Of a DNA stretch of 64,000 bases, positions 11,878-14,441 are shown piece by piece (the stretch's first letter is position 1; each line of letters opens with the position of its first letter). The notes beneath the pieces are model-generated. The model saw only the letters and a program-made list of their open reading frames with translations. It had not been told where the DNA came from and searched no databases. Origin of the DNA: Brevibacillus composti (GTDB taxonomy: Bacteria > Bacillota > Bacilli > Brevibacillales > Brevibacillaceae). A program made the translations under genes and the position numbers. Location of the stretch: assembly GCF_016406105.1 (NCBI RefSeq), contig NZ_CP066308.1, forward strand, positions 3,672,001 through 3,736,000, read 5' to 3'.

Positions 11878-13056
11878 GTGATTTCCTTGAAAAATTATAT
11901 CGAATTGGCAAGCAAACGTGTACAACTGCAAGAAGGTCCCCCGGCCATCGAAAAGCTCCTCTTGACCTGCTATCTGCGACCCGGCATCTCTACGAAAGAG
12001 CTGGCCCGCCAGCTGCTTTTGCCTGTTCCCGTCGCGGCCGCCGTCAAAAAGGAGCTGATCCGGCTGGGTGCGCTGCGTCAGGACCGCGGCGTTTGCTGCA
12101 CACCGGACGGAGAGACTTACGTAAGCCGCAGATGGGGGCTGGATGGGCTGGATCTGCCTTTGTACCGCAGGCTGATGGAAGAAGAAGGAGCGTGGCGCGC
12201 AGAGCTGGCTGACCTGTTGCAGAAGCTGGGCGACATCTTCCAGGCCCGTCCGCAGGTGGATGTGCAGATCGACCAGTCGAAATGCACGCCGGAAACCAGC
12301 CTGAAAAGAGCGCTCCTCTGCTTGCGAGATCATGCCCTCATCGGCAGCCGAATCCTGTGTCTTGGAGACGATGATCTCGTCAGCGTCTCGCTCGGGCTGC
12401 TGTTGCAGCGGCTGTTCCCGCGTGCGGTCGATCACCGGGCAGCGGTCACGGTCGTCGACATCGACCAGCGCTTTCTCCAGTACATCAGAGAGATCGCTGC
12501 ACGGGAAGGACTGCCGATCGAGTGCCGCCATGCCGACCTGCGCCGTCCGCTCTCGAGGACAGCTCTGGGCACGTTTGACTGCTTTTTTACAGACCCGCCC
12601 TACACCCTGCCGGGGATGAGCCTGTTTCTGTCTCGGGGCATCAGCGTCTTGAAGAAAAAATCAGGACAGCCGATCTATCTGTCGTTTGCCCATAAATCGC
12701 CCGACTTCATGCTGGAGATGCAGCGCGAGTTTATCCGCATGGGCCTGATGGTCAGCGAAGTGATTCCCCAGTTTAACGAATATGAAGGGGCTGAGATGAT
12801 CGGCAACCGGGGACAGATGATCATTCTGAAAACGACAGACAAGACCGCTCCCCTCCTCACGGGAGAATTCAAAGACGCCCTCTACACCGGCGAGGTCAAG
12901 CGGACCCTGCGGACGTACCGCTGCAAAAAGTGCGCCCAAGAGATCACGGTCGGCTTTCAAGCTGCTTTTGCGACGATTGAAGTGCTCAAAAACAAAGGCT
13001 GCCCGCTGTGCCGGCATGATTCCTTTGATCTTGCGCAGAAAAAATCTGTGATGTAA
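11878..13056 (+). CDS. bpsA: N4-bis(aminopropyl)spermidine synthase (branched-chain polyamine synthase)
   Basis: The 392-aa protein has an N-terminal winged-helix-like part (residues ~20-85, RPGISTKELARQLLLP). A Rossmann methyltransferase-like core follows: RILCLGDDDLVSVSLGLLL, VTVVDIDQRFLQYI and the catalytic FDCFFTDPPYTLPGM. The DPPY motif replaces the ED-type motif of ordinary spermidine synthases, as in BpsA. A C-terminal zinc-ribbon-like pair CKKC...CPLC closes it. BpsA adds aminopropyl groups from decarboxylated SAM to spermidine, giving branched polyamines first known from thermophiles. The start at GTG 11878 has a weak GGAAA upstream. TTG 11887 is possible. Confidence 0.88.
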   Translation: MISLKNYIELASKRVQLQEGPPAIEKLLLTCYLRPGISTKELARQLLLPVPVAAAVKKELIRLGALRQDRGVCCTPDGETYVSRRWGLDGLDLPLYRRLMEEEGAWRAELADLLQKLGDIFQARPQVDVQIDQSKCTPETSLKRALLCLRDHALIGSRILCLGDDDLVSVSLGLLLQRLFPRAVDHRAAVTVVDIDQRFLQYIREIAAREGLPIECRHADLRRPLSRTALGTFDCFFTDPPYTLPGMSLFLSRGISVLKKKSGQPIYLSFAHKSPDFMLEMQREFIRMGLMVSEVIPQFNEYEGAEMIGNRGQMIILKTTDKTAPLLTGEFKDALYTGEVKRTLRTYRCKKCAQEITVGFQAAFATIEVLKNKGCPLCRHDSFDLAQKKSVM

Positions 13057-13145
13057 TGGCTGGATGCGGCACCTTCTTCATCGCAGCAGGCTGAGCAGCT
13101 ACCTATGTTTACCTAATGCCAATGCGAGTTACGGGGCTGCAGTGG

Positions 13146-13343
13146 GAAGAAGCATGTTCCCATGCTAAGCTCCGTTCTCCGCCCGGCTAGGATGATTCAC
13201 TGTCCGCTCCACAGCGGCCCGCGGGGGTGCTCAAAAGCAGCAGCGCTCCGAGGTCATCCCACGTTTCGCCCCTTTTTCCCGCGGTCCGCTGTTCCGCTTA
13301 GCTGGGCTCCGCAAAGTCGCTGCGCATGGGAACATGCTTCTTC
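13146..13343 (+). repeat. palindromic ~198-bp element, copy 1 (forward)
   Basis: It is bounded by a perfect 20-bp inverted repeat: 13146-13165 (GAAGAAGCATGTTCCCATGC) against 13324-13343. The interior shares ordered blocks with copy 2 read in reverse: AGCTCCG, CCGCCC, TGTCCGCTCC, GGTCATCCCA, CCTTTTTCCCG, GGCTCC.CA and AGTCGC. No ORF. Homologous ends plus homologous interior make it a repeat family (MITE-like or structured-RNA-like), not a chance hairpin. Confidence 0.85.
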
Positions 13344-13487
13344 ACCGGAGCAGCCAGCTTTCGTCGGGTTGTATTTTTGCACTTCCCGTCAAAGACGTAT
13401 GGCGTTCTAGTGGCGTACTCCCTCAAGCATTCAATCTTCTTTATTCGACGGCAGCTTCACCCACACATCTTTAACCCATGGTTACAT

Positions 13488-13686
13488 GAAGAAGCATGTT
13501 TCCCTGCGGTGCGACTGTGGAGCCCTGCCGAGCGGAGTGGCGATTTTCGGGAAAAAGGAGCGCAACCCTGGGATGACCGCGGAGCGATACTACTTTTGCG
13601 TCTCCCCCGAAAATCGTCACGGAGCGGACAGTCCATGCTCCCCCGCAGGGCGGAACCCGGAGCTGAGCAGGGAAACATGCTTCTTC
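13488..13686 (-). repeat. palindromic ~199-bp element, copy 2 (inverted)
   Basis: The ends are a perfect 20-bp inverted repeat: 13488-13507 (GAAGAAGCATGTTTCCCTGC) against 13667-13686. Read on the minus strand the interior follows copy 1 block by block, with substitutions compensated between the two arms (CCATGC/GCATGG in copy 1, CCCTGC/GCAGGG here). Compensatory change suggests that the palindrome itself is maintained. The two copies are 144 bp apart in opposite orientation; ACCGG(A/T)GCAGCC follows the right end of both on the plus strand. Confidence 0.85.
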
Positions 13687-13712
13687 ACCGGTGCAGCCCC
13701 GCCACCTACGCA

Positions 13713-13754
13713 TAAAAAAACGAGGCTCCGCCAAACCTCCTGGCGAAGCCTTCG
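13713..13754 (-). terminator. terminator of the ferric transporter operon
   Basis: On the minus strand CGAAGGCTTCGCC pairs with GGCGGAGCCTCG, then TTTTTTT. It lies about 40 bp after the ATPase stop. Confidence 0.88.
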
Positions 13755-13793
13755 TTTCACTTGCATCTTTTGCACGTTACACCTGCAGAAGCG

Positions 13794-14441
13794 CTACGCT
13801 CCTTTCCCCATCACAACCGTCCGATCACAGATAGCATGCACATCTTCCTTGTCATGCGTCACAAAAATACAGGTGATCTTCGCCTTCTTCAGAATGTCGC
13901 GAAGCTCCTCCCTGATCCGCTCTTTGAGGTCTGCGTCGAGATTGCTGAAGGGCTCATCCATCAAAAGGACTTGCGGCTTGGGTGCCAGCGCGCGGGCCAG
14001 TGCCACCCGCTGCTGCTGGCCGCCGCTCAGCTCGTGCGGATAGCGCTTCTCAAAGCCCTTGAGCTGGACCAGCTCCAGCATCTCGTCGAGGCGTTTCTGC
14101 CTCTCTTTGCGGGACAGCCGGTGCAGCCCGAAGACGATGTTTTGGGCCACCGTCAGATGAGGAAACAGGGCGTAATCCTGAAACACCATGCCGACCCCGC
14201 GCTCCTCCGGCTCGACGAACCTGCGCTCATCGACGACGGTTTTTCCGGCGATCACAATCGAGCCGCCCGCGGGCTCTTCCAGGCCGGAGATCAGGCGCAG
14301 CAGGGTGCTCTTTCCGCTCCCGCTCTGTCCCAAAATCCCGACGATTTCTCCCTGCGAGATCGTGAGCGTGAAGTCTTGAATGGTCTTTTCCTTTGCCTTG
14401 GGGTAGTAAAAAGAAAGCTCCTTGATTTCACAGAAATTCAT
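13794..14441 (-). CDS. ferric iron ABC transporter ATP-binding protein (FbpC-like)
   Basis: Walker A GQSGSGKST, Q-loop VFQDYALFPH, signature LSGGQQQRVALARAL, Walker B VLLMDEPFSNLD and the H-loop VTHD are all present. At 215 aa it is short for the FbpC group (~350 aa): the C-terminal regulatory TOBE domain is absent, so it is a minimal ATPase. It overlaps the permease stop by four bases. With the permease and the substrate-binding lipoprotein upstream it forms a complete Fe(III) importer; the Fur box ahead of the operon supports iron as substrate. Confidence 0.9.
   Translation of the reverse strand: MNFCEIKELSFYYPKAKEKTIQDFTLTISQGEIVGILGQSGSGKSTLLRLISGLEEPAGGSIVIAGKTVVDERRFVEPEERGVGMVFQDYALFPHLTVAQNIVFGLHRLSRKERQKRLDEMLELVQLKGFEKRYPHELSGGQQQRVALARALAPKPQVLLMDEPFSNLDADLKERIREELRDILKKAKITCIFVTHDKEDVHAICDRTVVMGKGA

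Follow-up and report, generated by a model that had tools for sequence, protein, structure and literature searches.

Divergent pairs of two structured palindromes, oriented with GC skew, form an interspersed non-coding family in Brevibacillus composti and related genomes

We analyzed a 64,000-nucleotide stretch of Brevibacillus composti (the window; contig NZ_CP066308.1, positions 3,672,001 to 3,736,000) and confirmed that two palindromes within it are one unit of an interspersed non-coding family, present in this host genome (G000, 4.47 Mb) and in its relatives. The unit consists of two different hairpins of about 200 nt, types M and K, that diverge across a spacer. The family is multi-copy and intergenic, M and K pair divergently, the direction of the units is locked to GC skew, the K-to-M linker is near-constant, and the fold is strand-specific and preserved by compensatory changes. 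The best reading of these observations is that the element is old and non-coding, and organized like REPINs and BIMEs but of much larger structured palindromes.

The first-pass annotation had described two palindromes with perfect 20-bp terminal inverted repeats. Alignment of the arms bore out these repeats and the positions of both copies (Table 1). The arms of copy 1 (13146-13170 and 13319-13343) are 92% complementary over 25 nt, the first 20 perfectly, and those of copy 2 (13487-13507 and 13667-13687) are 100% complementary over 21 nt. The copies had also been described as colinear when one is inverted, and this agrees with interior blocks that are 72-85% complementary and a blastn identity of 74% between copies. 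Two end positions differ between the copies and are paired within each copy, as had been proposed. The folding energies of copies 1 and 2 on either strand correspond to z-scores of -5.9 to -7.6 relative to dinucleotide shuffles, and 0 of 200 shuffles were as good each time. The copies had been said to carry no ORF; mechanical open reading frames overlap them, and a hexamer-based gene caller accepts none there. Copy 2, which is the M side of the unit, is the one facing the terminator of the ABC transporter ATPase gene.

Table 1. Features of the hairpin unit and its surroundings, in window positions
Feature	Position	Strand	Remarks
Flanking gene, BpsA_C / methyltransferase-like	11878..13056	+	3' end 89 bp left of copy 1
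Outer extension of copy 1	13130..13145	-	TACGGGGCTGCAGTGG on the plus strand; family-conserved beyond the terminal palindrome (seen in the flanks of 33 G000 copies and in alignments of duplicated units)
Copy 1, structured palindrome of ~198 nt, K/A side	13146..13343	-	G-U-tolerating strand is minus; R1 match on minus, 217 bits
Spacer of the unit	13344..13487		82.5% identity over 143 nt with the spacer of unit G000:C1:533501-533994
Copy 2, structured palindrome of ~199 nt, M/B side	13488..13686	+	Structured strand is plus; R1 match on plus, 216 bits
Outer extension of copy 2	13687..13701	+	ACCGGTGCAGCCCCG
Intrinsic terminator stem-loop of the right-hand minus-strand gene	13722..13751	-	Found by scan; T-run ~30 bp from copy 2 (M/B side)
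Flanking gene, ABC transporter ATPase	13794..14441	-	3' end 107 bp from copy 2

Copy 1 used as a blastn query identified 47 places in the host genome. The 16-mer end, with one mismatch allowed, occurs at 75 places there, compared with 0 for a reversed control pattern. By profile search, G000 has 33 full-length copies and a second genome, G008, has 55, besides partial and internally deleted copies. We built a covariance model, R1, from 28 host copies. Every one of the 26 genus genomes has R1 matches, between 1 and 83 each; these counts include weaker matches to the reverse strand of the same hairpin. At the family level, 36 of 39 genomes and 7 of 7 genera had matches. An even sample of the class gave matches in 19 of 151 genomes; 11 of these 19 lie outside the family, and five of those have five or more matches. 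The exact motif GGAGCGGACAGTC was present in 19 of 398 genomes of the phylum, with 16 sites in the host and one in each of the other 18, and is enriched in the host genome only.

The blastn and covariance-model searches had been suggested in the first-pass annotation, and they reveal many further copies, by blastn in the host genome and by R1 also in related genomes. It had reasoned that the two palindromes would be a local inverted duplication of one palindrome, without wider meaning, if related genomes held no further copies and paired substitutions were not in excess. The window's two copies, taken alone, would fit such a duplication. It is refuted by the genome-wide family and by covariation above controls (see below), and we give it practically no weight.

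Searches of plasmid, phage and viral-contig collections (three patterns were run on the viral contigs) returned no match, and we rejected a plasmid or phage origin, noting that these collections may omit records near the host genome. A known Rfam RNA was rejected because the best scores for window positions 13000-13900 and five loci of G006, G008 and G019 were under the gathering scores (24.6 bits of 90 and 26.2 of 44.3). A tRNA was rejected as well. A single very strong match (160.8 bits; L284:2662-2861) lies on a 10.6-kb draft contig of G121, a genome of another family, and suggests a recent transfer or contamination. One match in a Gammaproteobacteria MAG has no hairpin and is, by our estimate, about as much as chance would yield.

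Full-length hairpins measure about 192-201 nt. Conservation extends beyond them by about 16-23 nt on the outer and about 45-70 nt on the inner side, and a type-specific 5' leader is partly conserved. The first-pass annotation had noted neither these extensions nor the genome-wide family, the heterotypic pairing and the strand and skew polarity described below. The copies of G000 and G008 are largely paired, minus then plus in structured orientation, at distances of 31-2422 bp. G008 has 26 pairs, of which 24 are heterotypic, and its neighbors within 2600 bp are minus-then-plus in 23 of 23 cases. We defined a unit as a minus hairpin followed by a plus hairpin and counted 110 units in four genomes (G000, G006, G008 and G019), comprising 102 heterotypic and 8 homotypic units. 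Plus-then-minus neighbors in G000, G006 and G019 are the joints between successive units of arrays. The unit of G006 and G019 comprises M (198 nt), about 70 bp, and K (about 200 nt), with up to four units in tandem. The K-to-M linkers within these arrays are 46-52 bp long in 21 of 23 cases and similar from locus to locus. A tandem array also occurs in G000 at 1017085-1018902.

Three pairs of units are duplicates (G000 3685146/533501, of which the unit at 533501 is truncated; G008 490365/528487 and 115122/607072). Duplicated units have in common the hairpins (90.4-98.6% alike), the spacer (84.0-88.4%) and about 16-23 nt outside the hairpins, and homology ends beyond. It had been proposed that the spacer could itself be mobilizable; this gains partial support because the three pairs have spacer sequence in common. 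The spacers examined contain no gene of their own except two ordinary insertion sequences. These are an IS605-type TnpA-TnpB pair and an ISL3-family transposase in the two longest G008 spacers (L141:3660-5167, L146:4449-5675). Being of different kinds, they look like chance insertions, and an autonomous transposon in the G000 and G008 spacers was rejected because only these two are found there.

Other forms were observed at particular loci. At least four M-like hairpins lie in tandem and in one direction at L112 (G007), with a period of ~286 bp and no K detected by profiles. Short tandem repeats of the hairpin 3' end plus the outer extension adjoin a full unit at L154 (G008 4635057-4635187) and in the right flank of G008 443508. 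Shortened hairpins without the centre or one side occur at G000:C1:4226636-4226746, G008:C1:4611030-4611095, and G006 504743 and 4832181; the deletion joint of G006 504743 is at a short repeat. At G006:C1:5862923, the unit-end motif CCCACCACGACAGC is present with no profiled hairpin alongside.

M and K lie on the strands predicted by local GC skew in 102 of 102 heterotypic units of the four genomes. These include arrays and orthologs and are not independent, and the G008 units alone give 23 of 23. GC skew is taken to stand for replication direction, and unit direction thus appears to follow replication. Counting clusters instead of units, 150 of 164 (one locus fetched twice) are oriented as skew expects; single hairpins and homotypic pairs account for the other 14. 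Sorted by neighboring genes, the clusters with the expected orientation number 94 of 106 where both genes are leading, 44 of 46 where they are convergent, 9 of 9 where they are divergent and 3 of 3 where both are lagging. Because polarity holds where the neighboring genes disagree, unit direction is set by skew, and hence presumably by replication, rather than by gene direction.

A site for replication or chromosome organization, that is, a fork-polar DNA element bound by a host protein in folded or double-stranded form, comparable to polar motifs or protein-binding BIMEs, would show such polarity. BIMEs bind gyrase and other host proteins. The 102 of 102 units whose polarity is largely independent of gene direction, the intergenic positions and the same architecture in a second family (see below) are consistent with this explanation. 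However, matches per genome range from 1 to 83 in the genus, and particular sites, including that of the window, are without a hairpin in relatives, which argues against a site-specific essential role. Long structured palindromes with spacers would also be an unusual protein site, and we consider this explanation improbable.

The units are intergenic, and their M side often lies just past a T-run. A T-run was found 12-75 nt outside the hairpin for 56 of 102 M and 31 of 102 K hairpins, compared with 331 of 2200 in the background. Hairpins serving as mRNA 3' ends reached by read-through were rejected, since the selected M strand would run antisense to the leading gene beside it. Class C group II introns insert just downstream of intrinsic terminators and resemble the units in this siting. 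They differ in structure, and no Rfam group II intron match was detected in the loci searched. One group II intron reverse transcriptase (RVT_1 and GIIM; L171:1450-2712, G006) lies directly upstream of an M hairpin. As a T-run is found in the same pre-unit stretch of G019, the G006 intron may have used that terminator.

We assessed the fold in an alignment (A2) in which 97.6% of cells are paired. Both sides have changed in 21 of 49 pairs, compared with a mean of 11.8 for shuffled alignments (0 of 500 as high) and 5-8 for slid structures. The suggestion that the palindrome is selected or copied as a unit is supported, because paired substitutions exceed every control and occur also between orthologous copies at the same locus. 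Strand specificity was assessed from mismatches. Pairs picked by each strand's own fold contradicted themselves (230 G-U to 6 A-C on one fold, 37 to 149 on the other), and we therefore used pairs common to both folds and an energy-free choice. On the 31 pairs found in both strand folds, the strand read spacer-outwards has 36 G-U and 2 A-C mismatches (M 19:1, K 17:1). Pairs picked by covariation alone gave 81:28 (M 34:4, K 47:24), the same direction but weaker for K. The alifold energy of 88 copies is -70.7, versus -42.6 on the reverse complement. Given the G-U tolerance of the outward strand, the functional strand in the window is minus for copy 1 and plus for copy 2. Because M functions from one strand and K from the other, a mutation bias tied to replication should not yield both.

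A similar architecture was found in another family (f12), in genomes G127 and G087 (~47% GC in the fetched loci). All 14 adjacent pairs within 400 bp are divergent, mostly about 165 bp apart, and 11 of 11 typed pairs comprise one of each of two subfamilies; the pairs of L265, L266 and L268 were omitted from typing because they are too diverged or incomplete. With the sense set by majority, 9 of 11 typed pairs follow skew, counting as agreeing L272, where skew is near zero; the exceptions are L275 and the second pair of L279. The f12 fold has an energy of -48.8 versus -22.8 kcal/mol on the reverse complement, and 17 of 28 shared pairs have changes on both sides. The ratio of G-U to A-C mismatches is only 20:10 (p 0.10). 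The motif GGAGCGGACAG is present in 29 of 37 matches of G127, G087 and G091.

The main rival to a mobile element is a divergent pair of structured RNAs, an alternative that the first-pass annotation had already raised. Promoters in the spacer would drive M one way and K the other, yielding closed-hairpin RNAs of ~200-240 nt with a conserved apical region and GGAGCGGACAGU, and the copies would be dosage or locus-specific genes of one RNA class. The outward G-U tolerance of both hairpins, the alifold energies favoring the outward strand here and in f12, the retention of GGAGCGGACAG, the partly conserved type-specific leader and the compensatory changes at orthologous loci all agree with it. This explanation accounts for the strand effect as well as the mobile reading does, but not for direction, and it leaves the siting past T-runs unexplained. 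In addition, no Rfam relation was detected, and window positions 13000-13850 contain 0 sigma-70-like promoters (0.4 expected). We regard it as possible but rather unlikely.

The evolution of the loci was followed between G006 and G019, the flanks of which are mostly 92-97% alike. Of 51 clusters in G019 (one locus counted twice), the fetched G006 sequence covers both flanks for 40, and an element is present there at 39 of these. Conversely, the fetched G019 sequence covers both flanks for 37 of 55 G006 clusters, with an element present at 36. We note that these counts of locus stability are biased because the regions were picked around matches. The G019-to-G006 exception left an end remnant in G006 rather than an empty site. 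The G019 counterpart of G006 886090 is other sequence, and in G019 the flanks of G006 unit 871410 are separated by about 4.5 kb, with no hairpin between them. Array sizes differ between the two genomes (1 vs 2, 2 vs 1 and 4 vs 3 units, and others). At L191 (G019 434591-443534), a gene pair resembling a regulator and a membrane peptidase by eye is present twice among three units, compared with once in G006 (L182), as if the units were recombination sites.

We compared 28 hand-chosen orthologous hairpins using single-sequence folds. Divergence is 5.1% in stems versus 11.3% in unpaired parts. The 181 changed stem pairs comprise 125 that are broken, 40 that are pairable by a one-sided change and 16 that changed on both sides and still pair; if changes were independent, about 5 double changes, kept or not, would be expected.

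In a comparison of G000 with G008, 10 of 30 G000 clusters have a same-side neighbor gene in common. Five G000 sites are without a profiled hairpin in G008: the single copies at 4121946, 4133885 and 4174106, the unit at 3767791, and the window unit, whose flanks are about 2.6 kb apart in G008. Three profiles detected no hairpin in 18 stretches, among them the surroundings that the relative of the left-hand gene has in 12 other genomes. We could read neither a target duplication nor a clean empty site, as the hairpin-less G008 counterparts are too diverged at their junctions and one G006 site is a remnant. The stability of loci between G006 and G019 and the hairpin-less sites in G008 and other genomes indicate that sites persist for a while, with turnover in the long term.

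The first-pass annotation had named a MITE family and a REP/BIME-like element beside a structured RNA. These candidates pointed to the right neighborhood, but a classic MITE is unsupported. Ordinary MITEs would be derived by deletion from a DDE insertion sequence and, not being autonomous, would depend on its transposase for movement. The 20-bp inverted ends, the lack of a gene-like open reading frame, the intergenic sites, the copy number and the spacer common to duplicated units fit this explanation. Heterotypic pairing and a direction kept in 102 of 102 units are not expected of MITEs, and old copies keep compensated folds. There is no readable target duplication and no autonomous partner in the places searched, and no insertion sequence with the same ends was seen (of the 37 places where the K-end pattern occurs in G006 and G019, 36 adjoin a profiled hairpin). 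Ordinary MITEs are therefore a very unlikely explanation.

A search of the host genome for a REP-type transposase gave one PF01797 match, an IS200/IS605-like TnpA beside a TnpB-like open reading frame, with no hairpin in the 3.35-kb locus. Because this sole match is IS200/IS605-like and without hairpins, we rejected a RAYT-moved REP in the host genome. A RAYT would be a Y1 transposase with the repeats on its flanks. Classic IS200/IS605 transposition uses ends on a single strand, whereas M and K function from opposite strands. The GT(A/G)G or CGTC tag is absent from the window copies; on the structured strand, the sequences ahead of them are CTCCGGT and GGTTACAT. GTAG does occur at or near the 5' edge of 61 of 85 K hairpins of G006 and G019 (CTCGTAG then AGGAAACAGG); this may recall REP tags and is perhaps a coincidence. 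The REP/BIME-like proposal stands as far as inverted pairs and alternating clusters are concerned, but as size, tag and RAYT tests fail for the host genome, we do not file the family as REP.

In the cited descriptions, REPINs are inverted palindrome pairs with a less conserved spacer that form a replicative, extragenic unit, and REPs occur in tandem clusters that take in flanks, with singlets read as remnants and palindromy kept by complementary change (PMC3116915, PMC2817692). The present family resembles these accounts in its inverted palindromes with a spacer, extragenic position, tandem clusters and complementary change, and differs in that its hairpins are ~200 nt with conserved non-palindromic motifs, compared with 20-40 bp for REPs (PMC3116915, PMC2817692). 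For heterodimers (HH/TT) of GTAG/CGTC repeats, spacers of 20-100 bp are given for most dimers, and alternating opposite orientation, regular spacing and heterodimers of different elements are likenesses to BIMEs as portrayed there (PMC3733652, PMC2817692). Unlike REPINs, the family pairs two types as a rule and keeps a direction tied to GC skew; the window copies have no GT(A/G)G head, and no RAYT was found in the host. It is set apart from BIMEs by its size, elaborate structure, strand specificity and the skew polarity of 102 of 102 units.

The 190-bp repeat of Bacillus subtilis, reportedly noted in the 1997 genome paper, is said to have about ten copies of ~190 bp in two subfamilies, to lie in one direction relative to fork movement, and to keep its secondary structure through compensatory mutations, for which a structural RNA was suspected. 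By this account, it is strikingly alike in size, fork-relative direction and compensated fold, but is not described as divergent heterotypic pairs. By this likeness, it may belong to the hairpin family.

Our preferred explanation, to which we give about an even chance, is a non-autonomous composite element, similar to REPINs and BIMEs, that spreads in connection with the replication fork and the fold of which is kept by selection. The entity copied would be the whole unit and not the single hairpin. Copying would be carried out in trans by a fork-linked, single-strand-dependent enzyme, which would explain the locked direction. The present copies would hardly move over short periods, and most of their change would come from arrays growing or shrinking and from internal deletions. 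The fold would owe its maintenance to recognition of the strand read spacer-outwards, by a protein or by RNA of the element itself. Several observations count against this explanation. No mobilizing gene was found in searches of the host genome and the G000 and G008 spacers, and loci are largely stable between G006 and G019. By single-sequence folds, 125 of 181 changed stem pairs are broken between orthologs, and the direction rule is broken by 14 of 164 clusters and by 2 of 11 typed f12 pairs. The unreadable target duplications and empty sites, the opposite strands of M and K, unlike classic IS200/IS605 ends, and the G-U to A-C ratio of 20:10 in f12 also weigh on this side.

We do not claim that the family of hairpin pairs is unpublished; it is possibly a new kind if its mobilization or an RNA function proves distinct. 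More broadly, and with less than even confidence, we suggest a class of replication-polar heterotypic hairpin pairs that occurs in several families of the taxonomic class. Each unit would encode or display two differing strand-specific folds acting together, either as the two termini of a mobile element that rides the fork as a single strand and differs from both REP/RAYT and IS200/IS605, or as a divergent non-coding RNA pair at the ends of leading-strand genes. Covariation material for an Rfam family is already at hand. If this suggestion is right, the pairs would be a substantial class of non-coding repeats, spread over several of these families, that combines three rules: two-type pairing, a strand-specific fold and a skew-locked direction. 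They would provide a natural assay for fork-coupled insertion, with many copies per genome for testing folded intergenic elements at gene ends. They may also explain the puzzle of the B. subtilis 190-bp repeats, reportedly both suspected of being a structural RNA and locked in direction to the fork.
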